A stretch of 64,000 nt of DNA from Kocuria varians (lineage in GTDB: Bacteria; Actinomycetota; Actinomycetes; Actinomycetales; Micrococcaceae): NCBI RefSeq assembly GCF_006539885.1, contig NZ_BJNW01000003.1:1-64000 (forward strand), in the 5' to 3' direction. The notes below the pieces were generated by a model, which did no database searches, was not told where the DNA came from, and saw only the letters and a program-made list of their open reading frames with translations. The position numbers and the translations under genes are program-made. This document shows positions 3,903 to 64,000 of this stretch, piece after piece (the first letter of the stretch is position 1; every line of letters begins with the position of its first letter).

Positions 3903-3938
3903 CGCAGGCCCCGCAGCCCCACCGGCGCGGGGCCTGCG
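3903..3938 (+). terminator. Terminator after bccA
   Basis: Perfect 12-bp GC-rich arms (3903-3914 and 3927-3938) around a 12-nt loop, just past the stop. No T-tract, as usual in high-GC actinobacteria. The right arm overlaps a copy of the dispersed GCGGCGTCGTC repeat. Confidence 0.7.
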
Positions 3939-3946
3939 GCGTCGTC
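3936..3946 (-). repeat. Dispersed 11-mer GACGACGCCGC, intergenic copy
   Basis: Exact copy, reverse orientation, between bccA and the MHS transporter, overlapping the end of the bccA terminator hairpin. Confidence 0.85.
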
Positions 3947-4052
3947 GCGCACGTCAAGCATGTATCTCACCATGCGGACATCCAAGTTCACGATGCGGTA
4001 TTCGGGGCTCTATCTTGAAGGAATTCCAGATACCCGTCCTGTGAGGTTCTCC

Positions 4053-5465
4053 ATGTCGTCACCCGCGTCCACCGTGGAACCCGGCTCCGCCGCACCCCAC
4101 CCGCACGTTCCGCGCAGCCGCGTGATCCTGGCCTCCCTCGCGGGGACCACGATCGAGTTCTACGACTTCTACGTCTACGCGACGGCCGCAGTGGCGGTGT
4201 TTCCCGCCCTGTTCTTCACGGGCAACGACGACACCGCCAAGCTGCTGGCCTCGATGGCCACGTTCGCCGCGGCGTTCTTCGGCCGGCCCATCGGCTCCGT
4301 GATCTTCGGGCACTTCGGGGACCGCATCGGGCGCAAGGCCACCCTGATCGGTGCGCTGCTGACCATGGGCATCGCCACGTTCCTCATCGGCGTGCTGCCC
4401 ACGTACTACCAGATCGGCGTGTGGGCGCCTCTGATCCTCACGATCCTGCGCTTCTGCCAGGGCCTGGGTCTGGGCGGCGAGTGGTCGGGGGCGTCCCTAC
4501 TGGCCACCGAGTACGCCGAGGAGGGCAAGCGGGCGCGGGCGGCCATGTGGCCCCAGCTGGGTGCGCCGTTCGGCTTCATCCTGGCCAACGGCTTCTTCCT
4601 GCTGCTCACCGTGGCCATGCAGTTCGGCACGGCGGGCCACGATCTCGGCACCGGCCACCCGTTCCTGGTGTGGGGCTGGCGCATCCCTTTCCTGGCCTCC
4701 GTGGTCATGGTGCTGCTGGGCCTGTGGGTGCGCGTGAAGCTCGAGGAGACCCCCGTGTTCAAGCACGCGGAGAAGCAGGGTGAGAAGGTCACCGCTCCCG
4801 TGCTGGAGGTCTTCAAGACCTCGTGGGTGCAGATCGTGCAGGGCACGTTCATCATGCTGGCCACCTACGTGCTGTTCTACCTGATGACCGCGTGGATCCT
4901 CTCCTACGGCATCGGCAAGCCCGCCGGGGGCGGGCTGGGCATCCAGTACCGCACCTTCCTGGTGCTGCAGCTGCTGGCCGTGCTGCTCTTCGCGGCCATG
5001 GTGCCGGTGTCCGGGTGGCTCGCGGACCGCTTCGGCCGCCGCTCCTCGCAGCTGGTGATCACGTCCCTGATCCTGGTCTTCGGCCTCACGTTCGGGCTCA
5101 TCATGGACCCCTCGCTCGTGGGCACCGGTGAGGACGCCTCCCTGCTGCGCGTGCTGTTCTTCCTGACCGTGGGCATGACCCTCATGGGCCTCACGTTCGG
5201 CTCGATGTCCGCGATCCTGCCCGAGCTGTTCCCCACCAACGTGCGCTACACCGGTTCCGGGATCGCGTACAACGTGGCCTCGATCCTGGGTGCGGCCATC
5301 ACGCCGTACATCGCCGTGACGCTCAACGCGAACTTCGGTGTGGGCTCGGTGGGGCTGTACCTCTCCTTCGCGGCAGTCATCACCCTGGTGGCCCTGTGGT
5401 TCTCCCCCGAGACCCGCCACGTGAACATGAACACCGTGGGTGCCGCGCGGGTGGTCGTGGAGTAG
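4053..5465 (+). CDS. MHS-family MFS transporter (metabolite:H+ symporter)
   Basis: A 470-residue, twelve-helix major facilitator of the metabolite:proton symporter group (ProP/KgtP/ShiA relatives), which imports osmolytes or organic acids. Helix 1 GTTIEFYDFYVYATAAVAVFPALFF and the loop-2/3 signature GHFGDRIGRKATLI are typical of the group. A second copy of the signature, GWLADRFGRRSS, opens the C-terminal half. I chose ATG 4053 (MSSPASTVEPG), preceded by GTGAGG, because the sequence upstream is unlike the family. It is monocistronic, separated from lpdA by a bidirectional hairpin. The substrate cannot be fixed from sequence; shikimate, proline/betaine or a dicarboxylate are all possible. Confidence 0.88.
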   Translation: MSSPASTVEPGSAAPHPHVPRSRVILASLAGTTIEFYDFYVYATAAVAVFPALFFTGNDDTAKLLASMATFAAAFFGRPIGSVIFGHFGDRIGRKATLIGALLTMGIATFLIGVLPTYYQIGVWAPLILTILRFCQGLGLGGEWSGASLLATEYAEEGKRARAAMWPQLGAPFGFILANGFFLLLTVAMQFGTAGHDLGTGHPFLVWGWRIPFLASVVMVLLGLWVRVKLEETPVFKHAEKQGEKVTAPVLEVFKTSWVQIVQGTFIMLATYVLFYLMTAWILSYGIGKPAGGGLGIQYRTFLVLQLLAVLLFAAMVPVSGWLADRFGRRSSQLVITSLILVFGLTFGLIMDPSLVGTGEDASLLRVLFFLTVGMTLMGLTFGSMSAILPELFPTNVRYTGSGIAYNVASILGAAITPYIAVTLNANFGVGSVGLYLSFAAVITLVALWFSPETRHVNMNTVGAARVVVE

Positions 5466-5483
5466 CCCTCCGCCGCCCCAAGG

Positions 5484-5534
5484 ACGACGACGCCGCGGTG
5501 ACCTTCGCAGAAAAGGTCACCGCGGCGTCGTCGT
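5484..5534. terminator. Bidirectional terminator built from two inverted GACGACGCCGC copies
   Basis: Perfect 22-bp stem (5484-5505 / 5513-5534) with a 7-nt loop, between the convergent MHS and lpdA genes. The outer part of each arm is the dispersed 11-mer (5486-5496 forward, 5522-5532 reverse). Confidence 0.88.
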
Positions 5535-5553
5535 ACCGCGGCCGAGAACTGCG

Positions 5554-8482: not shown

Positions 8483-8493
8483 GACGACGCCGC
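8483..8493 (+). repeat. Dispersed 11-mer GACGACGCCGC, intergenic copy
   Basis: Exact copy in the gap between the small membrane protein and the rml remnants; preceded by another GAC (8480-8482), giving the extended form. Confidence 0.85.
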
Positions 8494-10940: not shown

Positions 10941-13900
10941 CTACCCCGCGGCGTCGTCCGTGCCGCCGGCGGGTTCGAGCACCGGGAAGATCGCGTCCAG
11001 CACCTCGCGGGCCCAGGCGAGGATGTCCCCGTCCACGAGGTCCTTGCCGCCGATCCGCGCGGTCTTGGGCTTGGGGGTCAGCACCATGCGCTGCTCCGTG
11101 CCCGGCACCGGCCGCACCTGCGAGCCCGGGTACATGCGCTGCAGCCGCATCTCGCGGGACTCCGCGAGCTCCGCCGGGGAGAAGCGGATCATGTTCCCCT
11201 GCGTGGCCACGTCCGTGAGACCGGCCGCGCGGGCGCGGATGCGCAGCCGGGCGACGTCCAGCAGGTTGGAGACCGGGACGGGCACGGGACCGTAGCGGTC
11301 CACGAGCTCCTCCGCGGCCTCCGCGACCGCCTGCTCCGTGGTGGCGTTGGCGAGCGTGCGGTAGGCCTCCAGGCGCAGCCGCTCCCCCGGGACGTAGTCG
11401 TGCGGCAGGTGCGCGTTGACGGGCAGCTCGATCTTCATCTCGGCGGGCCCGGTCTCCTGGTCCCCGCGGTACTCGGCCACGGCCTCCCCCACGAGCCGCA
11501 GGTACATGTCGAATCCCACCCCGGCGATGTGCCCGGACTGCTCACCGCCCAGCAGGTTGCCGGCTCCGCGGATCTCGAGGTCCTTCATGGCCAGCTGCAT
11601 GCCCGAGCCCAGCTCGTTGTGCGCGGCCACGGCCTTGAGCCGTTCCAGGGCGGTCTCGCTCAGCGGCTTCTCCGCCGGGTACAGGAAGTACGCGTACGCG
11701 CGCTCCCGCCCGCGGCCCACGCGCCCGCGCAGCTGGTGCAGCTGCGAGAGCCCGTAGCGGTCCGCGTGGTCCACGATCAGCGTGTTGGCGTTGGCGATGT
11801 CCAGCCCGGTCTCCACGATGGTCGTGCAGATCAGGACGTCGAACTTCTTCTCCCAGAAGTCCACGATGATCTGCTCCAGCCGCGACTCGCTCATCTGCCC
11901 GTGGGCGACGGCGATCCGCGCCTCGGGCACGAGCTCGGCCAGTTCCTTGGCGCGCGCCTCGATGGTCGAGACCCGGTTGTGGATGAAGAACACCTGGCCC
12001 TCGCGCATGAGCTCGCGGCGCACCGCGGCGGAGACCTGCTTGTTGGTGTACGGCCCCACGTAGGTGAGCACCGGGTGGCGCTCCTCCGGCGGGGTGGCCA
12101 GCGTGGAGGTCTCTCGGATGCCCGTCATGGACATCTCCAGGGTGCGCGGGATGGGCGTGGCGGACATCGCGAGGACGTCCACGTCCGTGCGCATGGCCTT
12201 GAGCTTCTCCTTGTGCTCCACGCCGAAGCGCTGCTCCTCGTCGATGATCACCAGCCCCAGGTTCTTGAACTGCATCTCCTTGCTCAGCAGCCGGTGCGTG
12301 CCGATCACCACGTCCACCGCGCCGCTGCGCAGCCCCTCCATGGTGGCCCGGGACTCCTTGGCGCTCTGGAAGCGCGAGAGGGTGGCCAGGCGCACGGGGA
12401 AGCCGGAGAAGCGCTCGGCGAAGGTCCCGGTGTGCTGCTGCGCGAGCAGGGTGGTGGGCACCAGCACGGCCACCTGCTTGCCGTCCTGCACCGCCTTGAA
12501 CGCGGCGCGCACGGCCACCTCGGTCTTGCCGTAGCCCACGTCACCGGAGATCAGCCGGTCCATGGGGATGGGCCGCTCCATGTCCGCCTTAACCTCGTCG
12601 ATCGTGGTGAGCTGGTCGGGGGTCTCCACGTACGGGAAGGCTTGCTCCAGCTCGCGCTGCCACGGGGTGTCCGGGCCGAAGGCATGACCCTTGGACGCCA
12701 TGCGCGCGGAGTACAGGCGGATCAGCTCGTTGGCGATCTCCTTGACGGCCTTCTTGGCGCTGCGCTTGGTCTTGCTCCAGTCCGCACCACCCATCTTGGA
12801 CAGCGACGGCGCCTCGCCGCCCACGTACGTGCTCACCTGGTCGAGCTGGTCCGTGGGCACGAAGAGCCGGTCCCGGGGACCGTTGCGCTTGGACGGCGCG
12901 TAGTCCAGGACGAGGTACTCGCGCACGGGCTTGGGCTGGCCCGGCGCGGTCATCGCACCGGCGATGGGGCGCTGGACGAGTTCCACGAACTGCCCGATGC
13001 CGTGCTGCTCGTGCACCACGTAGTCGCCCTTCTGCAGGGCCAGCGGGTCCACCTGGTTGCGCTTGCGGCGCTGCGGCAGCTTGCGCTCCGCGCGGTTGTC
13101 GTAGGTGCTCGAGCGCCCGAGCACGTCCGCCTCCGTGAGCAGCGCGGTGCGGGTGGCCTCGAGCACGAAGCCGCGGCCCGCGCGCGCCGTCGTCAGCTCC
13201 ACGAGCCCCGGCTGCGGGGGCTCGGTCAAGGAGTCGTAGCGGGCGGCGGGGATCTGCGCCACGTGCAGCAGCTCGCTCAGCCGCTGCAGCGGACCCGGCC
13301 CGTCGGTCACCAGAACGACCCGCCACTCCTCGCGCACCCGATCCGCCAGGAATGCGAGCATTGCCTCCACGTCCCCCGAGAAGCGGGTGGGTTCGCGCCC
13401 GCCCACGGTCAGGGTGTCCGCGTCCGTGTCCGCGAGGTGGACCTCCTCCTCGGGGGTGTCGGCGTCGATGTCCGAGGTGGTCACGGCGTTGACGTTCAGA
13501 CCGGTGACGGACCACCAGCCCACCGTGCGGTCCAGGGCGAGCTCGCGGACCTCCGCGATGGTGTGGAACGAGCCGGACGAGAGCGAACGGGTGGCGCCGT
13601 CGTCCGTGTCCAGCGCAGTGTTCAGGTCCAGGGGCGCGTCGTTGCCGCCGGAGGCGGACTCCCACGCGGCCATGAGGAACTCCTCGTTGGTGGCCACGAG
13701 ATCGTGGGCGCGCGCCCGCACCTTCTCCGGCTCGAGCACCACGGTCATGGAGCCCTCCGGCAGCAGGGACATCACCTGCACCATGTCGTCCGCGAGCAGC
13801 GGAGCGAGGGACTCCATGCCCTCCACGTACTGGCCCCCGGCAATGCGCTCGAGCATCTCGCGGCCGCCGGGCAGCTGCTCCTTGAGCTTGGCGGCGCGGG

Positions 13901-14681
13901 ACTGCACGGAGGGCGTCACGAGCAGCTCGCGGCACGGCGGGGCCACGACGACGCTCGGGTGGGTGGCGTCCGCGAGGGTGCGCTGGTCCGCGACGGCGAA
14001 CCAGCGCATCTCGTCCAGCTCGTCCCCGAAGAACTCCAGGCGCACCGGGTGGTCCTCGGTGGGCGGGAAGACGTCCACGATCCCGCCGCGCACCGCGAAC
14101 TCCCCGCGCTTGGTGACCATGTCCACACGCGCGTACGCCGCCGCGGCCAGGTCCGTCACGAGCGCCTGGAAGTCGTAGTCCCGACCGGTGCGCAGGGTCA
14201 CGGGCTCCATCTCGCCGAGCCCGGCGACCACCGGCTGCAGCACCGAGCGCACCGGCGCGACGACCACGCGCAGCGGGTCCCCCGCCTCCGGGTGCGCGAG
14301 GCGGCGCAGCACGCCCAGGCGCTGACCGACCGTGTCCGAGCGCGGGGAGAGCCGCTCGTGCGGCAGGGTCTCCCAGGACGGGAAGTTGGCGACCGTCTCC
14401 GCGGGCAGATAGGAGGCGAGCGCGGCCTGCACCTGCTCCGCCTCGCGGCCCGTGGCCGTGACGGCCAGCAGCACCGGGGCAGGGCCACCGTCCGAAGACG
14501 ACGCCGCGTGCGCCTCCTCCAGACCCGCCGCGACCTGCGCGAGCACGGGCGCGCGCAGACCGTCCGTGGCGCTGATGATGGTCTCCGCCGAGCGCTCCGC
14601 GAGGGGCCGCGCGGCCTGGGTGCGGACGTTGGCGAAACCGCGGTCCTCGCTGAGGGCGGTGAGCAGACCGGTCAGGGACAT
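10941..14681 (-). CDS. mfd: Transcription-repair coupling factor Mfd
   Basis: A 1246-residue Mfd ATPase, which removes RNA polymerase stalled at DNA lesions and recruits UvrA. The UvrB-like N-terminus (FPSWETLPHERLSPRSDTVGQRL), the RNA-polymerase interaction domain (LQKGDYVVHEQHGIGQF), the helicase core with Walker A SGDVGYGKTEVA, Walker B IIDEEQRFGVEHKEK, motif III SATPIPRTL and the TRG region are all present. The C-terminal regulatory domain follows. I preferred ATG 14681 (MSLTGLLTALSEDRGF), where family similarity begins. Two copies of the dispersed 11-mer lie inside: at 14497-14507 (encoding AASSS) and at the 3' end, 10948-10958 (encoding the final DDAA). Confidence 0.96.
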   Translation of the reverse strand: MSLTGLLTALSEDRGFANVRTQAARPLAERSAETIISATDGLRAPVLAQVAAGLEEAHAASSSDGGPAPVLLAVTATGREAEQVQAALASYLPAETVANFPSWETLPHERLSPRSDTVGQRLGVLRRLAHPEAGDPLRVVVAPVRSVLQPVVAGLGEMEPVTLRTGRDYDFQALVTDLAAAAYARVDMVTKRGEFAVRGGIVDVFPPTEDHPVRLEFFGDELDEMRWFAVADQRTLADATHPSVVVAPPCRELLVTPSVQSRAAKLKEQLPGGREMLERIAGGQYVEGMESLAPLLADDMVQVMSLLPEGSMTVVLEPEKVRARAHDLVATNEEFLMAAWESASGGNDAPLDLNTALDTDDGATRSLSSGSFHTIAEVRELALDRTVGWWSVTGLNVNAVTTSDIDADTPEEEVHLADTDADTLTVGGREPTRFSGDVEAMLAFLADRVREEWRVVLVTDGPGPLQRLSELLHVAQIPAARYDSLTEPPQPGLVELTTARAGRGFVLEATRTALLTEADVLGRSSTYDNRAERKLPQRRKRNQVDPLALQKGDYVVHEQHGIGQFVELVQRPIAGAMTAPGQPKPVREYLVLDYAPSKRNGPRDRLFVPTDQLDQVSTYVGGEAPSLSKMGGADWSKTKRSAKKAVKEIANELIRLYSARMASKGHAFGPDTPWQRELEQAFPYVETPDQLTTIDEVKADMERPIPMDRLISGDVGYGKTEVAVRAAFKAVQDGKQVAVLVPTTLLAQQHTGTFAERFSGFPVRLATLSRFQSAKESRATMEGLRSGAVDVVIGTHRLLSKEMQFKNLGLVIIDEEQRFGVEHKEKLKAMRTDVDVLAMSATPIPRTLEMSMTGIRETSTLATPPEERHPVLTYVGPYTNKQVSAAVRRELMREGQVFFIHNRVSTIEARAKELAELVPEARIAVAHGQMSESRLEQIIVDFWEKKFDVLICTTIVETGLDIANANTLIVDHADRYGLSQLHQLRGRVGRGRERAYAYFLYPAEKPLSETALERLKAVAAHNELGSGMQLAMKDLEIRGAGNLLGGEQSGHIAGVGFDMYLRLVGEAVAEYRGDQETGPAEMKIELPVNAHLPHDYVPGERLRLEAYRTLANATTEQAVAEAAEELVDRYGPVPVPVSNLLDVARLRIRARAAGLTDVATQGNMIRFSPAELAESREMRLQRMYPGSQVRPVPGTEQRMVLTPKPKTARIGGKDLVDGDILAWAREVLDAIFPVLEPAGGTDDAAG

Positions 14682-15726: not shown

Positions 15727-16484
15727 TGCTCCACCACGAGCTCCACGAGTTCGGGGGGCACCGGGCCGGGGCTCACGAGCAGCGGCTCGGCCACCACGTC
15801 CGCCTCCGCCGCGAGCGCCCGCCCGTGGAAGAAGCCGGGGGCGAGCAGGTACGGCACCACGAGCACCCGACCCGCACGGCCGCCGGGCGCTGACTCCGAG
15901 AGCTGCGCGGCGTCGTCGCCGGTCGCGAGGTTCTCGCGCGCGGCGGCAACGGCCTCCGGCAGTGTCGGGTGTGCGGCGGAGAGGTAGGCGGTGGATACCG
16001 GCAGCCCGAGAAGGTTGGAGAGCATCTCCGCGACGCGTTCGCAGTCCTCGCCCGCGCGGGGGTCGGAGGACCCGGCGGAGACCATGACCACGCTGTCCTC
16101 CGGACCCACGGCGGACTCGCCCGCGGCGTGGACCGCTTCGTGGAGCCGACGCGCCAGCAGGGTTGCGAGCCGGGGGTCCGGGCCGAGGGCCACCGCCACG
16201 CGGTGGTGCTCCGATCCCCGGACGGCGCGGGCCATGTCCACGAACACGTGGTAGCCGGCGGAGAGCAGCAGCGGCACCACCACGGCGGACTCGCGCGCGA
16301 ACTCCGCGGTGCGCGCGGCGAGATCCGGCTCCTGGACGTCCACCCACGTGGCCACCACGGGGACGTCGCGCAGGGCGGCCCGCACCTCGGCCACGAGCGC
16401 GGCCACGGCGGCCTGGCCCCGCGGGTCACGGGTGCCGTGGGCGCAGGCGAGGAGAACGGGGGTCGAGGAGGTCGGAGTGCTCAC
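15699..16484 (-). CDS. CbiX/SirB-like sirohydrochlorin chelatase
   Basis: About 261 residues. The start LLACAHGTRDPRGQAAVAAL carries the chelatase His (AHGTRD), and the second half repeats the fold with VSAGSSDPRAGEDC. This two-lobed arrangement fits single-chain CbiX-type chelatases that put Fe2+ or Co2+ into sirohydrochlorin. The start is uncertain. GTG 16484 is 7 nt downstream of CACAAT (leaderless style), while ATG 16493 (MGGVSTP) would add three residues. A copy of the 11-mer (15907-15917) encodes GDDAAQ. Convergent with hemD, overlapping it by 28 nt. Confidence 0.85.
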   Translation of the reverse strand: MSTPTSSTPVLLACAHGTRDPRGQAAVAALVAEVRAALRDVPVVATWVDVQEPDLAARTAEFARESAVVVPLLLSAGYHVFVDMARAVRGSEHHRVAVALGPDPRLATLLARRLHEAVHAAGESAVGPEDSVVMVSAGSSDPRAGEDCERVAEMLSNLLGLPVSTAYLSAAHPTLPEAVAAARENLATGDDAAQLSESAPGGRAGRVLVVPYLLAPGFFHGRALAAEADVVAEPLLVSPGPVPPELVELVVEHYREAAAAA

Positions 16485-41081: not shown

Positions 41082-41092
41082 GCGGCGTCGTC
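41082..41092 (-). repeat. Dispersed 11-mer GACGACGCCGC, intergenic copy
   Basis: Exact copy followed by GTC (extended form), between the DUF559-type gene and the right inverted repeat. Confidence 0.85.
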
Positions 41093-42241: not shown

Positions 42242-42252
42242 GACGACGCCGC
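42242..42252 (+). repeat. Dispersed 11-mer GACGACGCCGC, intergenic copy
   Basis: Exact copy immediately upstream of the tatD promoter. Confidence 0.85.
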
Positions 42253-47507: not shown

Positions 47508-47555
47508 GACGACGCCGCCCGGTGCCCTCGCGCGAGGGCACCGGGCGGCGTCGTC
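47508..47555. terminator. 48-bp perfect palindrome with inverted GACGACGCCGC ends
   Basis: The two 24-nt halves are exact complements. Each end is the 11-mer (47508-47518 forward, 47545-47555 reverse). It begins 6 nt after the operon's stop codon and serves as a terminator, probably bidirectional towards rsmI. Confidence 0.9.
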
Positions 47556-48669: not shown

Positions 48670-50295
48670 GTGCCTTCGACCGTTTCCTCCCCCGCCGTCC
48701 GGCCGAGCGCCGGTCCCCCCGCGCGTCCGCTGGGCGAGCTGCTGCTGCCCGCGGTCACGCGCCTGCCCCGGTACTGGTGGGTTCCGCTGGCGCTGGTGAC
48801 GCTGCTGGGCGGGGTGATGCGCTTCGTGAGCCTGTCCTCCCCGCACGCCGTGGTCTTCGACGAGACCTACTACCTCAAGGACTCCTACTCGCTGCTGCTG
48901 CACGGCACGGAGCAGCAGTGGCCCTCCGGTGCGGACGAGGGCTTCGTGTCGGGGAAGATCCCGGACGTGGAGAACCACCCGTCCTTCGTGGTGCACCCGC
49001 CCCTGGGCAAGTGGCTAATCGCCGTCGGGCTGTGGGCCTTCGGAGGGGAGGACCCCTTCGGCTGGCGGTTCTCCGCCGCGCTGTTCGGCACGGCGTCCAT
49101 CGCGCTGATCTGGTGCGCGGGCTGGCTGCTGTTCCGCTCGGTCTCGCTGGCCACGGTCGCCGGGCTGCTGACCTCGCTGGACGGGCTGCACCTGGTGGAG
49201 TCGCGGCTCGCGCTGCTGGACATCTTCCTGATGTTCTTCCTGCTGCTCGCCTTCGTGCTCGTGCTGCTGGACCGGGACGACGGACGACGCCGCCTGCTCG
49301 CCCGCATGAACACCTCTCCCCTGGGCCCGTGGCTCGGGGTCCGGTGGTGGCGCGTGGCAGCGGGTGTGGCGTGCGGTGCGGCGGCCGCCGTGAAGTGGAA
49401 CGCCCTGTTCAGCATCGCGGCCCTGGGCGTGCTGGCCGTGCTCTGGGACATGAACGCGCGCCGGGTCGCCGGCGTGCGCCGCTGGTTCACGGGTGCGCTG
49501 CTCAAGGACGGGCCGTGGGGCTTCCTCACGATGATCGGCACGGGCCTGGTGACCTACCTGCTCACGTGGTCCGGCTGGCTGCTCACGGACACCGGCTACG
49601 ACCGCAACTGGGCGGAGCTGAACCCGGGGCAGGGCCCCCAGTGGCTGCCGTCCGCGCTGCGCTCGCTGTGGGAGTACCACGTGGCCGCGTACTCGTTCCA
49701 CACGGGCCTGTCCTCCCACCACACGTACATGGCCGGGCCGCTGAGCTGGTTCGTCATGGAGCGGCCCACGTCCTACTACTACGAGTCCCCCGGCGCCGGC
49801 ACGGACGGCTGCACCGTGGACTCGTGCAGCCAGGCGATCCTGAACCTGGGCAACCCCGCGATCTGGTGGGCGGCCATCCCGGCCCTGGGCCTGGGCATCT
49901 GGCTGTGGGCGGTGCGCCGCGACTGGCGCTTCGGCGCCCTGGTGGGCATCTGGGCGGCGGGCTACCTGCCGTGGTACCTCTACCCCGAGCGCACCATGTT
50001 CTTCTTCTACGCCCTGTCCTACTTCCCCGCACTGGTGCTGCTGCTCACGGGCGCGATCGGTGTGCTCACCGGCAGGCTCGCGGTGCCGCGGCACGGGGCC
50101 ACGGCCGGCACGGTGGCCGCGCTCGACGACGAACGGGTGGTCTCCCCGCGCTGGGCCCGGCGCTGGCGTGTAGTCACCCTGGTGTTCCTCGTGCTCGTGG
50201 TGGCGCTGGCCGTGTTCTTTTGGCCCGTGTGGACCGGCCAGACCATCCCCTACGACCACTGGCGCTGGCGGATGTGGTTCAGGTCCTGGATCTGA
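48670..50295 (+). CDS. pmt: Protein O-mannosyltransferase (PMT family)
   Basis: A 541-residue multi-pass membrane glycosyltransferase (GT39) that moves mannose from polyprenyl-phosphomannose onto Ser/Thr of exported proteins. VVFDETYYLKDSYS holds the catalytic DE motif in the first external loop. ENHPSFVVHPPLGKWLIAVG and LDGLHLVESRLALLDIFLMFF follow, and about eleven helices are visible. GTG 48670 is set by the TACCAT -10 box 6 nt upstream. A copy of the 11-mer (49283-49293) encodes GRRRL in a cytoplasmic loop. Its last 17 nt overlap the end of the convergent DUF1461 gene. Confidence 0.93.
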   Translation: MPSTVSSPAVRPSAGPPARPLGELLLPAVTRLPRYWWVPLALVTLLGGVMRFVSLSSPHAVVFDETYYLKDSYSLLLHGTEQQWPSGADEGFVSGKIPDVENHPSFVVHPPLGKWLIAVGLWAFGGEDPFGWRFSAALFGTASIALIWCAGWLLFRSVSLATVAGLLTSLDGLHLVESRLALLDIFLMFFLLLAFVLVLLDRDDGRRRLLARMNTSPLGPWLGVRWWRVAAGVACGAAAAVKWNALFSIAALGVLAVLWDMNARRVAGVRRWFTGALLKDGPWGFLTMIGTGLVTYLLTWSGWLLTDTGYDRNWAELNPGQGPQWLPSALRSLWEYHVAAYSFHTGLSSHHTYMAGPLSWFVMERPTSYYYESPGAGTDGCTVDSCSQAILNLGNPAIWWAAIPALGLGIWLWAVRRDWRFGALVGIWAAGYLPWYLYPERTMFFFYALSYFPALVLLLTGAIGVLTGRLAVPRHGATAGTVAALDDERVVSPRWARRWRVVTLVFLVLVVALAVFFWPVWTGQTIPYDHWRWRMWFRSWI

Positions 50296-51022
50296 GCGGG
50301 CGGGGAGCCGCCCACGGGACCGCGGCCAGGCGGCGTCGTCGGTGGGTCGTGACGAGCATGACCGCGAACGCGGCCACGAGCGCCACCAGCGCCACGGTGA
50401 GGGCGGCGTCCACCCAGAACTGCGTGGGGTAGAGCCGGATCAGGGTGTCGGAAAGGCTGAACGTCCACGTCCCGGAGCTGAAGAACAGCGAGTGGAACCC
50501 GGCGAAGAAGGTCTCCCAGCCCAGCAGGGCCGCCACGCACGCGAGCACCAGCAGCGCCACCGTGAGCCACGAGCCCCAGAACCACGCCGCGGAGGCCGCC
50601 CCCGGTGCGCGCCGGTGCAGCCACCAGCCCGCGAGCACGCTCAGCACCAGCAGCACGCCCGCGAGCAGCAGGCCCCACTGCATCACGCCCTGGACGTCGT
50701 GCATGTGCGAGACCTCCTGGGGCGTGAACGCCATCCCGCCCTCGGGGCTCACCAGCCCGCCCAGGTACTCGGGCGGCGCGAGGTTCATGATGTAGTCCAG
50801 CCCGTAGGACCCGAACGTCATGCGCTCGTCCGTGCCCATGCCCCAGCGGTCCGCGGGGAACCCGGGCCTGTGGTACTCGAGCCACAGGAAGGCCGGGGTG
50901 GCCACGAGCCGCGCCCCCAGCCCCACCAGCAGCACGGGCAGGGACAGGGTCAGCAGGCCCTGCAGCAGCCGCTGGACGACCGTGCGGCGGGGGCGGGCGG
51001 GGGTCGTGCGGGTTGCACTCAC
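50279..51022 (-). CDS. DUF1461/TIGR01906 integral membrane protein
   Basis: A 247-residue protein matching the TIGR01906/DUF1461 family of unknown function. Four to five membrane segments are visible: helix 1 LLTLSLPVLLVGLGARLVATPAFL, an external loop with the conserved EVSHMHDVQGVM, then GLLLAGVLLVLSVLAGWWLH, LTVALLVLACVAALLGW and AALTVALVALVAAFAVML. The loop also has WETFFAGFHSLFFSSGTWTF, typical of the family. GTG 51022 follows the L,D-transpeptidase stop by 7 nt, so it is the second gene of that unit. The 3' end includes the 11-mer (50330-50340) and overlaps pmt by 17 nt. Confidence 0.85.
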   Translation of the reverse strand: MSATRTTPARPRRTVVQRLLQGLLTLSLPVLLVGLGARLVATPAFLWLEYHRPGFPADRWGMGTDERMTFGSYGLDYIMNLAPPEYLGGLVSPEGGMAFTPQEVSHMHDVQGVMQWGLLLAGVLLVLSVLAGWWLHRRAPGAASAAWFWGSWLTVALLVLACVAALLGWETFFAGFHSLFFSSGTWTFSLSDTLIRLYPTQFWVDAALTVALVALVAAFAVMLVTTHRRRRLAAVPWAAPRPLRSRT

Positions 51023-51029: not shown

Positions 51030-52298
51030 TCACCAGTTTCCGTGCCAGTTCTCGTCCTTGTAGTGCTCGAACGGGATGTTCCAGTCCCCCAGGCCGTCGT
51101 CCGGGTCCGCCTGCGGGTAGTTCGTGTTGACCACTTCCACCATGTCACCGGGGCGGAACGTGTTGTAGATGTAGCTCGCGCCCTCGGGCGGCATGCCCAC
51201 GCAGCCGTGGGACACGTTGGCCACGCCCAGCACGGAGTACGCGGAGGGCAGCGCCTGGTGCACGAACTCGCCGCTCCACGTCAGCCGGGACACGTTGGAC
51301 GCGTCGAACGGCGGGTAGTAGTGCGAGTCCCCCGGCTTCAGGTGCAGGGAGCCCGCGTTGAACTTGTAGGACGCCGCCTGCTCCAGGATGACCTTCTTGC
51401 CCGTGGTGGAGGGCCACTCGGCGTCGCCGAGGGTCACGGGCCACGTGCCGCTCTCCTTGCCGTCCACGTAGGCCACGAGCGTTTTGGTGTTGTTGTCCAC
51501 GTACGCGCGCTGCTCCGGGCCGGTCGTGAACGTCACGGTCTTGTTGCCGTTGCCGATCATCCCGTTGCCCAGGTCCTTGCCCAGGATGTTCGCGCTGACC
51601 TTCACGGTGGACTTCGGGGTCCACGGGTCCCTGGGGCGGAAGCGCAGCTTCTGGTCCGAGTACCAGCGGAACGCGCCGTCCTTGTGCGCGCCCTCCACGG
51701 TGACGGCCTTCTCGATCGCGTCCTTGTTGGTCACGGGCTCGGAGAAGTTCAGCTCCACGACCTGCCACACGCCGTAGGTCTCACCGTCCCGCACGTTCAT
51801 GCTCACGTCCGCCTCGTGCGCGGCGTCCACGGTGCTGAAAACGCTCTGCCCGGTGCTCTCGCGGTCACCGTTGCGCGCCGTCCAGGCCACGGTGTACGTC
51901 TCGTCGAACGCCAGCGCTCCCTCGGAGCGCCACTCGGTGCCGTCCTCCTTCAACGCGCCCCTGGCCTTCTCGCCGGAGGTCGACGCCGTCACGGTCACGT
52001 CGGTCAGCTTTCCGGCGTCCGTGGCGACCACCACGGCGGCCGTGGGATCGACCATCGTGGTGTCCGCGGCGGGGGTCACGCGCACCGTGGGCGTCGTGCC
52101 CGAGGACGACGACGCCGCGGCACCCGAGCCCGACGGGTCCCCCGCGGCGTCGGAACCGGAGTCCGCCCCGCACGCGGCCAGCGCGAGGACCGCGGCGAGG
52201 CCGGTGGAGGTCGCGGCGAAACGGCGGCGGCTGAGACCGCGCGCGGCGGGCGGCTCCTGCGCGGAGTGGTGGTCGTGCGGGCGGGGTGAGGCTGTCAT
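51030..52298 (-). CDS. Lipoprotein L,D-transpeptidase (YkuD)
   Basis: A 422-residue cell-wall enzyme that forms 3-3 peptidoglycan cross-links. A twin-arginine-like SRRRFAATSTG precedes a lipobox (LALAAC, Cys ~43), so it is likely exported and lipidated. A Ser/Gly/Asp-rich stalk includes an AASSSS stretch encoded by the 11-mer at 52108-52118. Two Ig-like domains follow, as in mycobacterial Ldt enzymes. The YkuD domain ends in SGEFVHQALPSAYSVLGVANVSHGCVGMPPEGA, with the catalytic Cys in SHGCVGM. It forms an operon with the DUF1461 gene. Confidence 0.92.
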   Translation of the reverse strand: MTASPRPHDHHSAQEPPAARGLSRRRFAATSTGLAAVLALAACGADSGSDAAGDPSGSGAAASSSSGTTPTVRVTPAADTTMVDPTAAVVVATDAGKLTDVTVTASTSGEKARGALKEDGTEWRSEGALAFDETYTVAWTARNGDRESTGQSVFSTVDAAHEADVSMNVRDGETYGVWQVVELNFSEPVTNKDAIEKAVTVEGAHKDGAFRWYSDQKLRFRPRDPWTPKSTVKVSANILGKDLGNGMIGNGNKTVTFTTGPEQRAYVDNNTKTLVAYVDGKESGTWPVTLGDAEWPSTTGKKVILEQAASYKFNAGSLHLKPGDSHYYPPFDASNVSRLTWSGEFVHQALPSAYSVLGVANVSHGCVGMPPEGASYIYNTFRPGDMVEVVNTNYPQADPDDGLGDWNIPFEHYKDENWHGNW

Positions 52299-52392: not shown

Positions 52393-53112
52393 CTACGGCC
52401 GCCGCAGGTGCGGGGTGCGCAGAGCCGCCGGGAGGGGGACGGAACGCCCGGTCGTGGACGGCCGAGGGTTTGCGTTCACACTCGAACGCCTCGTCCCAGA
52501 ATACTCGTCGGAGTCGGCGGGAGGAACGCCCGGGGACGTCCGACCCACCACACCCGCGGGCGTGTCGTCGCGTGGCAGTTCCGCGGGGCGGCGCGTGCCG
52601 TCGCCGCGCCGAGCACCCGTGGACGTTCCCGCTCCGGCGGAGGGGCGTGTCGTGGCGGCATCGGCGGCGCGCCCGTCAGCGGCGGGCCGCGCGGCGTCGT
52701 CGTCAGCGTCAGCGTCAGGAGCATCCGGGCGGTAGGAGACGTCCCGCAGCACGCGCGCGCCGGGAACGGCGGGGCCGTTCGGGCGGGCGGCACCCAGCGA
52801 GGGTCCGCGGGGACTGCGCCGCACCACGGGCTCCTCGTCCGGGCGCACGGCCTGCACCACGGCGTCGACGTCGTCGCGGCCCCAGCCGTCCGGGAACTCC
52901 AGGCGCACCACGCGCCAGCCGCGCGGTGCCGTGAGGGAGTCCGCGTGCACGGGGCACAGGTCGTAGGCGTGCGGCTCCCGGCGCGCGGACAGCGCCCCGA
53001 TCACGGCGGTGGAGTCCGAGTAGACGTAGGTCAGCGTGCACACGGCATCCCGGTTGCACGTCTGCTTGGAGCAGCTGCGCCGCGGCACGGTCTCCTGCGC
53101 CACGCGGCTCAC
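52393..53112 (-). CDS. DUF3499 protein with long disordered tail
   Basis: A 239-residue protein. The N-terminal ~90 residues match actinobacterial DUF3499: RRSCSKQTCNRDAVCTLTYVYSDSTAVIGAL, YDLCPVHADSLTAPRGWRVVRLEFP. Four Cys and a His (CSKQTC, DLCPVH) suggest a zinc-ribbon. The remaining ~140 residues are low-complexity (Asp, Ala, Arg, Pro), including a DDDAAR stretch from the 11-mer at 52691-52701. GTG 53112 overlaps the whiB stop (GTGA), so translation is coupled. Function is unknown; the whiB-DUF3499 pairing is conserved. Confidence 0.87.
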   Translation of the reverse strand: MSRVAQETVPRRSCSKQTCNRDAVCTLTYVYSDSTAVIGALSARREPHAYDLCPVHADSLTAPRGWRVVRLEFPDGWGRDDVDAVVQAVRPDEEPVVRRSPRGPSLGAARPNGPAVPGARVLRDVSYRPDAPDADADDDAARPAADGRAADAATTRPSAGAGTSTGARRGDGTRRPAELPRDDTPAGVVGRTSPGVPPADSDEYSGTRRSSVNANPRPSTTGRSVPLPAALRTPHLRRP

Positions 53113-53908: not shown

Positions 53909-54625
53909 GTGGGACGCACACCGACCGATCTCGCGGGGGCCCTGGCCGCGGTCTCCGCACGCCCCACACCGGCTCTCGTCTGGCGTGACGGACCCGAGCG
54001 CGTGGAGCTCTCCGGGCGCGTGCTGGTCAACTGGGTCGAGAAGTCCGCCGGTCTGCTCGTGGACGAGCTGGACGTCACCGCCGGTGACGTCGTGCGCATT
54101 TCCCCCGTCCCGCACTGGCGACTGGTCGTGCTGACGCTCGCCGCACTGCGCGTAGGAGCCCGCGTGGCGTTCGACCCCGAGCTGGACGCCGAGTCCGAGG
54201 CCGTGGTCCACGCGTACCTCGAGACCGCGCCGGAGGATCCCGCTGCGGGCGCCACCGCACTCGTGGTCGCCGCGCCCGCGCTGGCCTTCGCGTGCTCGCA
54301 GCCGCTGCCCGGGGGCGCGGTGGACTTCTGCGACGAGGTCCGCGGCATGGGGGACGTCTACACGGGGTTCGAGGAGCCGGAGGCCGACGACGCCGCCCTG
54401 CCGTCCGGACTCACGCACGGCGAGCTCGTGGCCGCTGCCCTGGAGAGCCTGCCCGGTGAGCACGCGGGAGAGACGGTCTTCGTGCCGATGCCCGACGGCT
54501 GGGACGAGACGCAGCTGCTGCGCGTGCTCGGGGCCGCGGCGCAGGACGGTGCGGTGCTCATGGCCACGGATCCGGGCGAGATCACGGGCGACGTCCTGGC
54601 CCAGGAGCACGCGACCGCTCTCTGA
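53909..54625 (+). CDS. TIGR03089-family protein
   Basis: A 238-residue protein of the actinobacterial TIGR03089 family, related to the N-terminal part of AMP-binding (acyl-CoA synthetase-like) proteins but too short to be a full enzyme. It opens RTPTDLAGALAAVSARPTPALVWRDGPERVELSGRVLVNWVEKSA and continues with VVRISPVPHWRLVVLTLAALRVGARVAFDP. GTG 53909 has TAAGGAG 8 nt upstream. A copy of the 11-mer (54386-54396) encodes EADDAAL. It is divergent from whiB. Function unknown. Confidence 0.85.
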   Translation: MGRTPTDLAGALAAVSARPTPALVWRDGPERVELSGRVLVNWVEKSAGLLVDELDVTAGDVVRISPVPHWRLVVLTLAALRVGARVAFDPELDAESEAVVHAYLETAPEDPAAGATALVVAAPALAFACSQPLPGGAVDFCDEVRGMGDVYTGFEEPEADDAALPSGLTHGELVAAALESLPGEHAGETVFVPMPDGWDETQLLRVLGAAAQDGAVLMATDPGEITGDVLAQEHATAL

Positions 54626-57418: not shown

Positions 57419-59158
57419 GTGAACGGATCAACCGACCACCCGGAGGACGGCCGTCCCCTACCCTCGGCCACCCGCGCCCTGGAGGAGGTGCCCGAGGACG
57501 CCCGGCAGGACGCCCCGCGCGGTGCCGCCGCGGCGTCGTCCGCGGATTCCCGGACGGGTGCGGACCCCTACGGCGAGGACGACGACGCCGCCCCCGGTGG
57601 CGCTTCGGCCGTCCGCGATCCCGAGGCGGGCCCGCGCCGAGCGCGCTCCCGCCTGGGCGATCCGCTGCGCAGCCCCCGGTTCGCGGCCCCCGCGACCCGG
57701 ACCAAGCGCGCGTGGTGGCTGCTCGGCGCCACCCTGCTGATCCCCGGCTCCGCGCAGCTCGTGGCCGGAAAGCGCGTCGTCGGACGCGTGGCCGTGCGGA
57801 TCACCGCGGTGGTCTGGGCGCTGATCCTGCTGGCCGTGGTGCTGTGGTTCGTGTGGCGCACCGCCCTGGTGTGGCTGCTGACCAACTCCGTGACCTCCGC
57901 CCTGCTGATGTACGGGCTCGTGGCGCTGGCCATCGGCTGGGTGCTGCTGTGGTTCGACACCCTGCGGATCATCCGCCCGGGACTGCTCGGGGACGGCATG
58001 CGCCGCGGCGTCGTCATCACCACCGTGCTCGCGATGGTCCTCACCGGCGGCGGGCTCGGCTACGCGGCGCACCTGGTCTCGGTCGCGCGCCACGCGGTCT
58101 CGGACATCTTCGGCGGGGGCATGCCGTTCTCCGCGGCGGACGGGCGCTACAACATCCTGCTCATGGGCGGGGACGCCGGCGAGGACCGCGAGGGCCGCCG
58201 CCCGGACTCCATGACCGTGCTGAGCATCGACTCCTCCTCGGGCCAGACCGTGACGGTCTCCCTGCCCCGCAACCTGCAGAACGTCCCCTTCCCGGACAGC
58301 TCCCCCATGCACTCGGTCTACCCGGACGGCTTCAACTGCGGTGACGAGTGCATCATGAACGCCGTCTACACGGACGTGATGCAGAACCACAAGGACCTCT
58401 ACCCGGACGTCGAGGACCCCGGGGCACAGGCCACCAAGGAGGCCGCCGAGGGCGTCACGGGCCTGACCATCCAGGCGTACGCGCTGATCGACATGGACGG
58501 CTTCGCCTCGCTCGTGGACGCCCTCGGGGGCATCGACATGAACGTGGGCGGCCGCGTGCCCATGGGTGGCGGCACCAACCTGGACACCGGGGAGAAGAAC
58601 CCCATCCTGGGGTGGATCGAGCCCGGCGTGCAGCACATGGACGGCTACCACGCCCTCTGGTACGCCCGCTCCCGCGAGGGCGCCACGGACTACGACCGCC
58701 AGGCCCGCCAGCGCTGCGTCCAGGCCGCGATGCTCGCGCAGCTGAACCCGGTCACCGTGGCCACCAAGTTCGACGAGCTCGCGAGCTCCGGGCAGCAGAT
58801 TCTCGAGACGGACATCCCCCAGGCCTCGATCGGCTCCATGGTCACGGTCGCCACCAAGGCCAAGAACCACGAGCTGCAGGCCTACGCCGCCGGTCCGCCC
58901 TACTACGACCAGTCCTTCCCCACCTACCCGGACTACGAGCAGTTCCGTTCCGACCTCGCGGACGTCCTGAAGAAGGCCGACGGCGCCCAGGCGGGGGTGG
59001 CGGGCAGCGCGGCGTCGTCGTCGGCCGGGGCCGGTGTGAGCACCGCCGGCGGCGGCGTGGCCGGAGCGGGAATCGGGACCGCGGCCGTGGTGCCCGCGGC
59101 ACTGAAAGTGTCCACGGAGGAGACGCTGTCCCCGAACGGCACGTGCTCCGTGCCGTGA
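57419..59158 (+). CDS. LytR-CpsA-Psr family glycopolymer ligase
   Basis: A 579-residue LCP protein, which attaches wall teichoic acid or other glycopolymers to peptidoglycan. A long, Asp/Ala-rich cytoplasmic tail (~95 residues) precedes several helices (LLGATLLIPGSAQLVAG to TTVLAMVLTGGGLGYAA). The external LCP domain has GRYNILLMGGDAGEDREGRRPDSMTVLSID, SLPRNLQNVPFP, and WYARSREGATDYDRQARQRCVQAAM, with the conserved Arg/Asp cluster. A GTG at 57419 with CGGAG 6 nt upstream is preferred over the TTG at 57413. The gene holds four copies of the 11-mer (57530, 57581, 58005, 59009), the densest cluster in the window. Confidence 0.9.
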   Translation: MNGSTDHPEDGRPLPSATRALEEVPEDARQDAPRGAAAASSADSRTGADPYGEDDDAAPGGASAVRDPEAGPRRARSRLGDPLRSPRFAAPATRTKRAWWLLGATLLIPGSAQLVAGKRVVGRVAVRITAVVWALILLAVVLWFVWRTALVWLLTNSVTSALLMYGLVALAIGWVLLWFDTLRIIRPGLLGDGMRRGVVITTVLAMVLTGGGLGYAAHLVSVARHAVSDIFGGGMPFSAADGRYNILLMGGDAGEDREGRRPDSMTVLSIDSSSGQTVTVSLPRNLQNVPFPDSSPMHSVYPDGFNCGDECIMNAVYTDVMQNHKDLYPDVEDPGAQATKEAAEGVTGLTIQAYALIDMDGFASLVDALGGIDMNVGGRVPMGGGTNLDTGEKNPILGWIEPGVQHMDGYHALWYARSREGATDYDRQARQRCVQAAMLAQLNPVTVATKFDELASSGQQILETDIPQASIGSMVTVATKAKNHELQAYAAGPPYYDQSFPTYPDYEQFRSDLADVLKKADGAQAGVAGSAASSSAGAGVSTAGGGVAGAGIGTAAVVPAALKVSTEETLSPNGTCSVP

Positions 59159-60932: not shown

Positions 60933-60970
60933 GCGGCGCGGCGCCCCCGAGGACGACGACGCCGCGCCGC
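60933..60970. terminator. Terminator between the SDR and Fem-like genes
   Basis: 11-bp stem (60933-60943 / 60960-60970). The loop and right arm include a forward 11-mer (60955-60965). The genes converge here. Confidence 0.7.
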
Positions 60971-62549: not shown

Positions 62550-62699
62550 GGTGTCTTTCCTCTCCTCAGGCCCACGAACACCGCGGCCCAGCTTAGCCCG
62601 GACCGGCCTCCGGTCAGGCCGGATGCGTCCTCGGCACGCACAAACACACGCGCCCTCCCTCCCGTGTGGACGCGCGCGTGGTCGAGCGGAGCTGCGGGA

Positions 62700-63710
62700 T
62701 CAGCGCTGGTGGCGCTCGTACTTCTCCCACTTGGTGGCCAGGTGCTCGGCCTCGACCATGCGCACCGTGCCGGAGCGCGAGCGCATCACGATGGACTGCG
62801 TGGTGATGGTCCGCCCGCGGTAGCGCACGCCGCGCAGCAGGTCACCGTCCGTGATGCCGGTCGCGGCGAAGAAGCAGTTGTCCGAGGTCACGAGCTCGTC
62901 CGTGGTGAGGATCCGGTCCACGTCCAGCCCTGCGGCGGCGGCCTTCTCGCGCTCGCTCTCGTCCGTGGGGGCCAGCCGGCCCTGGATCACACCGCCGGTG
63001 GCCTTCACGGCGCACGCGGTGACGATGCCCTCCGGGGTGCCGCCGATGCCCATCATGATGTCCACGCCCGTGCCCTCGCGGCACGCGGCGATCGCACCGG
63101 CCACGTCACCGTCCAGGATCATGCGGGTGCGGGCACCGGTCGCGCGGATCTCCTCCACGAGACCCTGGTGCCGGGGGCGGTCCAGGACGCACACGGTGAC
63201 CTGGTTGGGCTTCACGCCCTTGGCCTTGGCCACCAGGTGGATGTTCTGCTTGACCGGCAGCCGCAGGTCCACCATGTCCGCGGCCTCCGGGCCCACCACG
63301 AGCTTGTCCATGTAGAACACGGCCGAGGGGTCGAACATGGACCCGCCGTCCGCGACCGCGATCACCGCGAGCGCGTTGTTCATGCCCAGTGCGGTCAGGC
63401 GGGTGCCGTCGATGGGGTCCACCGCGACGTCCGACTCCGGGCCGTTGCCGTCGCCCACGCGTTCGCCGTTGAACAGCATGGGGGCCTCGTCCTTCTCGCC
63501 CTCGCCGATCACCACGGTGCCGTTGAAGTCCACGGTGGAGAGGAAGGAGCGCATGGCGTCCACGGCCGCGCCGTCCGCGCTGTTCTTGTCACCGGCGCCG
63601 ACCCAGTGGCCGCCCGCGATCGCGGCCGCCTCCGTGACGCGCACCAGTTCGAGCGCCAAGTTCCGGTCCGCCACATTTCCCGAGCTGCCGTGCTGGGTGT
63701 TCTCTGCCAC
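62700..63710 (-). CDS. glpX: Class II fructose-1,6-bisphosphatase
   Basis: A 336-residue GlpX, the only FBPase of most actinobacteria, which hydrolyses fructose 1,6-bisphosphate for gluconeogenesis. [50 protein letters not shown] and [32 protein letters not shown] give the metal and substrate motifs, and [23 protein letters not shown] the C-terminal half. GTG 63710 ([11 protein letters not shown]) has GTGAGG 6 nt upstream; a GTG at 63722 is an alternative. It is divergent from the partial gene at the right edge. Confidence 0.95.
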
Positions 63711-63827
63711 GTTGTTCCTCACCTTCGAGTTTCGGCCGCGCCTGGATCCGCCGGGTCCCGGGCGCCACCACGGGTGTGCCCAGCATATCCCGGGGCCCCG
63801 CTGTTGGGCCGGTCCCCCGGAGCACGG

Positions 63828-63833
63828 CACAAT
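63828..63833 (+). promoter_or_regulatory. -10 box of the right-edge gene (leaderless type)
   Basis: CACAAT with spacer GGGTCC (6 nt) before GTG 63840; the same spacer sequence as upstream of pmt. Confidence 0.45.
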
Positions 63834-63839
63834 GGGTCC

Positions 63840-64000
63840 GTGAGTTCTTCTGCTTCCGGACCCTCCCCCGATCCCCGCACCGAGCCGTCGTCCTCCGCCT
63901 CCGCCGGGGGCACGGGTCCCGACGACGACGCCGCGGGCACCGGCCCCGCGACCACCGGCACCTCCGCGGGGTCCGCCCCGGGCGCGGTCGGCGGCGAGAC
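63840..64000 (+). CDS. Start of a gene with a disordered N-terminus (partial; DUF4245-like by position)
   Basis: The first 53 codons from GTG 63840 encode only Ser/Gly/Ala/Thr/Pro/Asp low-complexity sequence, including GPDDDAAG from the 11-mer at 63924-63934. The gene continues past the window. In Micrococcaceae a DUF4245 protein is usually divergent from glpX, and such proteins have an N-terminal polar tail before one membrane helix, so this is a plausible guess from position only. Confidence 0.5.

Follow-up and report, generated by a model that had tools for sequence, protein, structure and literature searches.

A dispersed, clade-specific 11-mer in Kocuria with the genomic habits of a DNA uptake sequence

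Introduction

Short sequence tags that mark DNA for uptake are described, in the available parts of the literature, for two proteobacterial families (PMC12616744, PMC3630211, PMC1939737). These tags, the DNA uptake sequences (DUS) of the Neisseriaceae and the uptake signal sequences (USS) of the Pasteurellaceae, have a recognizable set of genomic traits in the portions of the sources at hand: abundance, occurrence as inverted repeats, dialects built on a constant core, absence of orientation bias, and an excess in non-coding DNA (PMC12616744, PMC1939737, PMC1852404). Here we describe a word with similar habits in an actinobacterium. It is the 11-mer GACGACGCCGC, found in a 64,000-nucleotide stretch of Kocuria varians, positions 1–64000 of contig C3 of the source assembly G000 (2.84 Mb), hereafter the window. 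The motif is real, genome-wide and clade-specific, and it is DUS-shaped in the main respects that sequence can test. Together with its longer form ACGACGACGCCGC, it is probably an analogue of the DNA uptake sequences that has been spread by biased natural transformation within one Kocuria clade; of this reading, we infer the competence, the preferential uptake, the receptor, and the drive.

The closest described system is the DUS of the Neisseriaceae (GCCGTCTGAA and its dialects). Like the Kocuria motif, it is a short, non-palindromic word whose inward-facing pairs form hairpins, and it is present in hundreds to thousands of copies around a small invariant core; its dialects follow phylogeny, a trait that the Kocuria motif may share, as far as the available parts of the sources go (PMC3630211, PMC12616744, PMC1852404). 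The receptor of the Neisseria DUS is ComP. The Kocuria motif differs in its unrelated sequence, its fewer copies, and its host, an actinobacterium with Tad/Flp loci. The USS of the Pasteurellaceae (AAGTGCGGT, ACAAGCGGT) exhibit the same genome behaviour and likewise lack chromosomal orientation bias in the portion available (PMC1939737), but belong to a Gram-negative uptake system and are unrelated in sequence; no counterpart of their AT-rich extended part was seen in Kocuria.

A second point of comparison is the Flp/Tad-dependent transformation of Micrococcus luteus, which resembles Kocuria in having comEA, comEC and two separate tad loci (PMC4322843, PMC6370729, both in part). Both loci are required there for transformation and for surface Flp, according to the available text (PMC4322843). 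The motif itself is present in M. luteus at best as a one-base variant, and a term search of two M. luteus papers (PMC4322843, PMC8467076) did not return "uptake sequence". A literature search by titles and the starts of abstracts found none that dealt with actinobacterial uptake sequences, and the exact 11-mer occurs in 7 papers, all with unrelated titles. As far as that search reached, an uptake tag in a Gram-positive bacterium would be new. If the reading is true, recognition of a cell's own DNA evolves repeatedly, and with a different pilus. The motif would then offer a sequence-specific means of approaching the receptor, a simple route to transformation tests in Kocuria and possibly also in Micrococcus, and perhaps a marker separating exchanged core DNA from mobile elements.

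Abundance in the window and across the genome

Exact copies of GACGACGCCGC number 33 in the window (16 on the forward and 17 on the reverse strand), each with the coordinate and strand assigned to it in a preliminary description of this DNA. The chance expectation given there, 0.2 copies, is somewhat low: 100 dinucleotide-preserving shuffles of the window yielded a mean of 0.66 (maximum 3), and an order-4 Markov model predicts 1.11. With one mismatch allowed, 76 sites are found against 13.5 expected. In unbiased scans, GACGACGCCGC is the top over-represented 11-mer in the window, in 464 kb of G000 and in 400 kb of a second genome, G005, and the motif and its shifts head the window scan at all word lengths from 9 to 14. 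Genome-wide, G000 carries 823 copies (418 forward, 405 reverse), compared with 16 of the reversed word. This amounts to one copy per 3.5 kb, so that the spacing of about 1.9 kb first reported holds for the window, which is nearly twice as dense, rather than for the genome.

Composition was controlled for in two genomes, using the window plus 20 stretches of 20 kb from G000 (464 kb) and 20 evenly spaced stretches of G005 (400 kb), which we take to be K. rhizophila DC2201. Genes were called by a codon-usage script of our own. Since this caller shortens some starts, a strict intergenic set was defined as DNA without any possible upstream gene extension (46.9 kb in G000, 51.9 kb in G005). It holds 33 copies in either genome, against 0.20 and 0.18 expected from an order-2 model; the looser intergenic set holds 46 and 43, against 0.61 and 0.41 from an order-3 model. 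Even an order-5 model of the 464 kb, trained on the motif's own sub-words, predicts 13.6 copies where 130 are present. Intergenic density exceeds coding density in both genomes (0.70 versus 0.21 copies per kb in G000, 0.64 versus 0.20 in G005). Coding copies are themselves in excess over 20 synonymous shuffles that preserve protein, codon use and junction dinucleotides, numbering 82 against a mean of 27.4 (highest 34) in G000 and 66 against 22.1 (highest 28) in G005, so that the excess survives the codon-aware comparison proposed at the outset.

These figures bear on the simplest account of the motif, that it is a by-product of GC-rich codon use in proteins rich in Asp and Ala. Synonymous shuffling still leaves 27 copies in G000, and the Asp-Asp-Ala frame accounts for 46 of the 82 coding copies. 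Among the 21 coding copies of the window, 9 are in that frame and 7 read Ala-Ala-Ser, an uneven use of frames where the preliminary description had seen a spread; its argument from frames to selection on DNA is weaker than stated, and what still points to such selection is the excess between genes, together with the outcome of synonymous shuffling. The strict intergenic copies speak strongly against the codon account, as do the low counts in equally GC-rich sister species, and we disfavour it as very improbable on the intergenic counts and the shuffles. The partition of the window copies first given as 11 intergenic and 22 coding becomes, with the present gene calls, 12 not wholly coding and 21 wholly coding; the intergenic enrichment stands.

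Copies occur in all 20 G005 stretches, at 1 to 13 per 20 kb. Chromosome motifs of the kinds exemplified by the FtsK-orienting polar sequences (KOPS), Chi and matS are polar or regional. Relative to replication, 56 of the G005 copies are leading and 53 lagging, with no strand bias of the KOPS or Chi kind; the origin is assumed here to lie at coordinate 1, because GC skew is weak. The balanced orientation originally noted therefore extends beyond the window, and a polar chromosome motif is rejected on these strand counts under the assumed origin.

Anatomy of the motif, its variants and its pairs

Among 88 intergenic copies from G000 and G005, the two bases just upstream of the 11-mer are preferentially A (60%) and C (70%), while downstream positions exhibit slight G/C biases only. 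The favoured sequence extends beyond these 11 bases and is less strictly defined. A transposed repeat family, scattered by a transposase in the manner of repetitive extragenic palindromes (REP) or miniature inverted-repeat transposable elements (MITE), might be suspected from the inverted pairs, which can resemble short palindromic elements. Such a family is hardly credible given that no strongly conserved flank extends past the two upstream bases, with a weak bias downstream, and given that aligned orthologues differ at the sites mostly by base changes, with a few short gaps; it was rejected for the lack of strongly conserved flanks.

Single mismatches fall unevenly along the motif. Between genes, the observed over expected counts at the tolerated positions are 19/1.03 at position 1, 22/2.44 at 2, 19/2.85 at 5 and 7/1.19 at 11, with 47/1.09 at position 8, a figure inflated by register shifts. 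Mismatches are rare at positions 3 (2/1.12), 4 (4/0.97), 6 (2/0.93), 7 (4/1.13), 9 (3/1.01) and 10 (3/0.96). The excess is thus about 6–40 fold at the first set of positions and about 2–4 fold at the second. When exact copies are masked in the full 864 kb, 507 sites with a single mismatch stand beside the 239 exact ones, distributed as 77/9.2, 90/14.8, 83/25.7, 88/10.0 and 61/8.4 at positions 1, 2, 5, 8 and 11, and as 20/12.9, 13/11.0, 26/10.1, 18/7.2, 11/9.3 and 20/6.8 at positions 3, 4, 6, 7, 9 and 10. The least variable part is accordingly CGnCGnCG, a contrast that is clear in intergenic DNA and more blurred over the full sample.

A mismatch pattern of this sort fits recognition by one protein, and that protein need not act at the cell surface. 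The motif might be a genome-wide site for an intracellular protein of the nucleoid, of replication or repair, or of methylation, with no link to uptake, an explanation that we regard as unlikely yet worth carrying through the comparisons below. It would liken the motif to HIP1 of cyanobacteria, a dispersed, very abundant short palindromic word of debated role. Both words are dispersed and abundant, but the Kocuria word is non-palindromic and forms inward pairs. The presence of copies on both strands in every G005 stretch favours an intracellular site; that the motif is neither polar nor regional sets it apart from the KOPS, Chi and matS kinds.

Pairs were counted as copies 2–32 bases apart. 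The 11 rich genomes (defined below) included in both pair searches contain 169 inward and 54 outward pairs. G000 accounts for 36 inward and 11 outward, where random placement of 823 sites would give, by our own arithmetic, about 2 of each. The strong inward excess argues against an intracellular site. The search for outward pairs was confined to the genus; 11 of the 27 genomes, all rich, have them, and none was found in the rich genome G028 or in the 15 poor Kocuria. Inward pairs appear once or twice in four poor genomes (G003, G006, G007, G025).

The window has two inward pairs, both between convergent genes. The stretch around the first (5480–5545) folds at -49.5 kcal/mol (z -8.1) and that around the second (47500–47570) at -58.4 kcal/mol (z -6.8), both folds being far more stable than those of shuffled sequence; no T-tract was seen in either folded stretch. 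Of the earlier proposal that inverted pairs form terminators, the excess of inward pairs and the strength of the hairpins stand; a terminator in the strict sense is not supported. A broader version would have the motif spread as a terminator stem, with single copies as decayed halves. Besides the very stable hairpins between convergent genes, it can draw on the position of intergenic copies, 27 of 46 in G000 and 22 of 41 in G005 lying at most 60 bases from a gene 3' end, and on hairpins with a ACGACGGCG stem, which are frequent in several further genera of the family. It accounts poorly for the predominance of single copies (the 823 copies of G000 form only 36 inward pairs), for the threefold coding excess, and for outward pairs above chance. 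Furthermore, divergent gaps hold 12 of the 46 intergenic copies of G000 (5 of 41 in G005), and density differs only modestly by gap type (0.87 per kb in convergent, 0.72 in tandem and 0.56 in divergent gaps). On balance a terminator origin appears improbable.

Restriction to one Kocuria clade

Within the genus, 12 of 27 genomes are rich in the motif (335–823 copies) and 15 are poor (15–141). Named members of the set include K. tytonicola (G031), K. marina (G009, G012), K. salsicia (G028), K. tytonis (G032), K. rhizophila TA68 (G010), K. carniphila (G019), Kocuria sp. cx-455 (G011), K. soli (G001), K. coralli (G021), K. subflava (G030), K. palustris (G026), and two metagenome-assembled Kocuria (G004, G006). 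In a family set of 295 genomes, at least 90% complete and drawn evenly from a larger group, 11 rich Kocuria have 7–36 close inward pairs each; none of the other 284 has more than 3, and 26 of them have any at all. The 12-mer CGACGACGCCGC occurs 241–606 times in six rich Kocuria and at most 124 times in other genera of a 149-genome sample. In the comparison across genera suggested earlier, high counts are seen in the rich Kocuria within these samples, and Micrococcus may carry a one-base variant, on limited evidence.

Motif-poor controls bear out the contrast in intergenic DNA. Pooled G003, G008 and G023 have 4 coding copies against 4.1 expected, and G001 has 7 against 4.5, both with no intergenic copies. 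Ten rich and ten poor genomes were placed in an unrooted tree of TadA1, TadB1, TadC1, TadA2 and ComEC, in which the ten poor genomes form one group. A single gain on the branch to the rich clade would be the simplest reading, short of proof as the tree is unrooted.

No other strong dialect was clear in motif-poor Kocuria within the 40–280 kb examined per genome or pooled set. Forms of CGACGACGNCG are only mildly raised there, and the word lists of G004 and G006 are headed by local or CRISPR-like repeats. Loci L035–L038 (G004) and L262–L265 (G073) have many identical repeats among their top words, resembling CRISPR arrays. Outside Kocuria, CGACGACGCCGC is raised in G058 and G084 of genus g33 (124 and 112 copies versus 0 and 5 of the reversed word) and in G108 of genus g9 (112 versus 9); inward pairs in these three genomes number 0, 2 and 1.

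Turnover of sites between species

Window sites were aligned to the syntenic DNA of G005, G028, G032, G011 and G003, many sites not being alignable. Identical coding copies were found at 4/18, 4/18, 4/14, 2/11 and 0/5 of the sites, respectively, whereas control 11-mers were identical at fractions of 0.24, 0.27, 0.25, 0.10 and 0.11. The four intergenic comparisons gave 2/4, 1/3, 2/7 and 0/2, against controls of 0.25, 0.23, 0.14 and 0.10. The rich relatives have copies of their own (23, 16, 11 and 5 in about 72 kb each, compared with 2 in 78 kb of G003), and many near-miss sites in relatives are one step off the motif. Positions that are not specially kept, in relatives that carry their own copies, point to drive rather than to fixed regulatory sites, and the small number of sites identical between species likewise disfavours an intracellular site. 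Uptake-driven accumulation predicts such turnover, according to the available part of one source (PMC1939737).

A 20-kb stretch of mobile appearance, L010 (G000:C1:40001-60000), holds no copy of the motif, the expectation being about 5.8. Genes for a primase-polymerase (Prim-Pol), an ArdC-type protein (ArdC N-terminal domain) and a DUF2637 protein lie within its first 6 kb, together with a ParB-like match to a Microbacterium plasmid. This absence is awkward for an intracellular site. In Neisseria, mobile elements have been detected through their atypical DUS distribution, as stated in the part of the source available (PMC7371117).

Competence and Tad machinery

ComEC was found in 26 of the 27 genus genomes, the one without a match being 76% complete. 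At least 4 T2SSF matches (TadB, TadC), that is, two TadB/TadC pairs, were found in 25 of 27, rich or poor, and 2 each in G007 and G027. ComEA matched in 18 of the 20 genomes compared, partially in G008 and G023, with no match in the short loci of G025 and G026. The search for comEA, comEC and Tad genes that had been proposed was thus positive in nearly all genus genomes compared, irrespective of motif content. In G000, contig C12 carries genes for TadA, TadB, TadC, a small pilin-like protein, TadE, a TadF-like protein and TadG, and contig C8 a second tad set. TadA, TadE, TadG and ComEA were assigned by Pfam and the other tad genes by position, with length also considered for the TadF-like protein and the small pilins. 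The ComEA of G000 combines SLBB and helix-hairpin-helix domains. Net charges, rich and poor groups together, range from -7 to 0 for the TadE of tad-1 and from -10 to -4 for the TadF-like proteins.

Three side observations concern these loci. A serine recombinase and a Prim-Pol protein adjoin the tad-1 locus of G000 (L117 1-3111, contig C12), with relatives in the tad-1 stretches of G005, G028 and G031; judging from these genes, a putative integrated element lies beside the pilus genes. The ComEC of G025 is represented by two matches 34 kb apart (L071, L072), and its competence locus may be broken or rearranged. Finally, a contig titled Vibrio cholerae strain 35D (L188, 66% GC) encodes a TadB 63% identical to that of Kocuria, and is probably from a contaminated assembly.

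A proposed uptake route and the evidence opposing it

The proposed uptake signal would be ACGACGACGCCGC, with GACGACGCCGC as its core and CGnCGnCG as its least variable part. A receptor of the competence apparatus, comprising the two Tad/Flp loci and ComEA, would prefer motif-bearing DNA at the cell surface. The bound DNA would be drawn into the cell, travel through ComEC in single-stranded form, and recombine. Since fragments bearing the motif would win, the motif would be copied into homologous sites and build up in places where it is largely harmless, namely intergenic DNA and the variable regions of proteins. Inward pairs would form hairpins and may also act in transcription termination. 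The likeness to DUS and USS claimed in the preliminary description is borne out by density, strands, intergenic enrichment, pairs, mismatches, turnover and the com and tad genes; an even use of frames and terminators in the strict sense are not supported.

A number of observations weigh against uptake. The 335–823 copies of the rich Kocuria fall below the 943–4265 given for DUS genomes in the available part of the source (PMC3630211). The mismatch contrast softens over the full 864 kb, to 3.2 fold at position 5 compared with 2.5–2.9 fold at positions 6, 7 and 10. Motif columns in coding sites are somewhat more alike than their flanks (identity 0.75 versus 0.72 in G005, 0.85 versus 0.75 in G032), so that some sites may be kept, as an intracellular site would have it. 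The occurrence of com and tad genes in motif-poor species also suits an intracellular site, and it means that the apparatus is no predictor of the motif. Among the pilins compared, none of the genes and no basic surface singled out the rich clade, and neither an extra TadE-type pilin nor a basic minor pilin specific to that clade was found. No report of competence in Kocuria was found in the available portions of the literature searched. The depletion in a mobile element is a lead, from one stretch noticed for its zero. Lastly, pooled G030 and G025 have 4 coding copies against 0.8 expected, with none intergenic, and G006 has 6 coding against 1.2 and 3 intergenic against 0.02, a weak signal; these counts are small. 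The coding excess by itself is no mark of the rich clade; it is the large intergenic excess that distinguishes rich genomes.

Possible dialects in other Micrococcaceae

A one-base variant of the motif, CGACGACGGCG, was followed in genus g20, presumably Micrococcus, as we take G147 to be M. luteus NCTC 2665. The samples were 80 kb of G073 and 100 kb of G147. In G073, coding copies number 24 versus 8.2 (highest 12) and strict intergenic copies 2 versus 0.02; in G147 the figures are 11 versus 4.5 (highest 7) and 2 versus 0.09. Genome-wide counts in the two are 625 and 496, with the reversed word at 23 and 20; hairpin pairs built from the shorter ACGACGGCG number 31 and 18 versus 0. On this small sample and thin evidence, CGACGACGGCG may be the Micrococcus (M. 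luteus) dialect of the motif.

A clean dialect is difficult to reconcile with the frequency of CGACGACGGCG in many other genera (for example 778 versus 21 in G050). In g28, g29 and most of g9 it is seldom found. In K. soli, a motif-poor genome, it reaches 374 versus 13, yet none is strict intergenic in 12 kb. Hairpins with the ACGACGGCG stem, an abundant family in g12 (33–137 per genome) and g25 (73–80) versus 0 for the reversed pattern, are numerous in g26 and other family genera as well; they were not counted as proof of a dialect, because pair and single counts in g12 do not track. In 47 pooled Arthrobacter/Pseudarthrobacter tad loci, CGACGACGGCG numbers 32 versus 12.6 in coding and 5 versus 0.32 in intergenic DNA, and the intergenic word lists are swamped by one conserved neighbour, presumably ssrA. 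The 12 Rothia loci were unusable because the gene caller left 169 of 239 kb uncalled.

We tentatively entertain the idea, which we think somewhat doubtful, of one-base uptake dialects across the Micrococcaceae on a (ACG)nNCG theme. The K. rhizophila/marina/carniphila clade would use CGACGACGCCGC, and Micrococcus, with the transformable M. luteus among its members, would use CGACGACGGCG; a Tad-pilus receptor would be the reader. If true, this would constitute a Gram-positive, Tad-based mate-recognition code of independent origin from those of Neisseria and Haemophilus.

Copies in the window

Table 1. Exact copies of the 11-mer and inward pairs in the window
Feature	Position	Strand	Remark
Motif copy, non-coding	3936..3946	-	
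Motif copy, left hairpin arm, non-coding	5486..5496	+	
Inward pair	5486..5532	.	between convergent genes 4122-5465 (+) and 5554-7140 (-)
Motif copy, right hairpin arm, non-coding	5522..5532	-	
Motif copy, non-coding	8483..8493	+	altered in G005
Motif copy, coding, end of Mfd-like gene	10948..10958	-	identical in G005
Motif copy, coding	14497..14507	+	
Motif copy, coding	15907..15917	-	
Motif copy, non-coding	20717..20727	+	
Motif copy, coding	23110..23120	-	
Motif copy, coding	29749..29759	+	
Motif copy, coding	30252..30262	-	
Motif copy, counted as non-coding	32496..32506	-	last two bases inside called gene 32505-33938
Motif copy, coding	33175..33185	+	
Motif copy, coding	33430..33440	-	
Motif copy, coding	36317..36327	-	
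Motif copy, coding	39608..39618	+	identical in 3/5 relatives
Motif copy, non-coding	41082..41092	-	
Motif copy, non-coding	42242..42252	+	
Motif copy, coding	43948..43958	+	
Motif copy, coding	47130..47140	-	
Motif copy, left hairpin arm, non-coding	47508..47518	+	
Inward pair	47508..47555	.	between convergent genes 45223-47502 (+) and 47722-48546 (-)
Motif copy, right hairpin arm, non-coding	47545..47555	-	
Motif copy, coding	49283..49293	+	identical in 3/5 relatives
Motif copy, coding	50330..50340	-	
Motif copy, coding	52108..52118	+	
Motif copy, coding	52691..52701	-	
Motif copy, coding	54386..54396	+	
Motif copy, coding	57530..57540	-	outward-facing pair with 57581
Motif copy, coding	57581..57591	+	outward-facing pair with 57530
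Motif copy, coding	58005..58015	-	
Motif copy, coding	59009..59019	-	
Motif copy, non-coding	60955..60965	+	
Motif copy, non-coding	63924..63934	+	

In a mosaic scan of the window, neither G005 nor G032 exceeded G028 by more than 7 points in any of 153 scanned segments, and one block of 97% identity was shared with G005. This block of about 3 kb (7991–11100, including a dTDP-rhamnose gene at 8634–10055) is about 97% identical to G005 against a window average of 83%, its left edge coinciding with the edge of the G005 stretch compared; between roughly 8460 and 10800, hardly anything aligns in G028 or G032. The high identity suggests a recent exchange between species of the rich clade.

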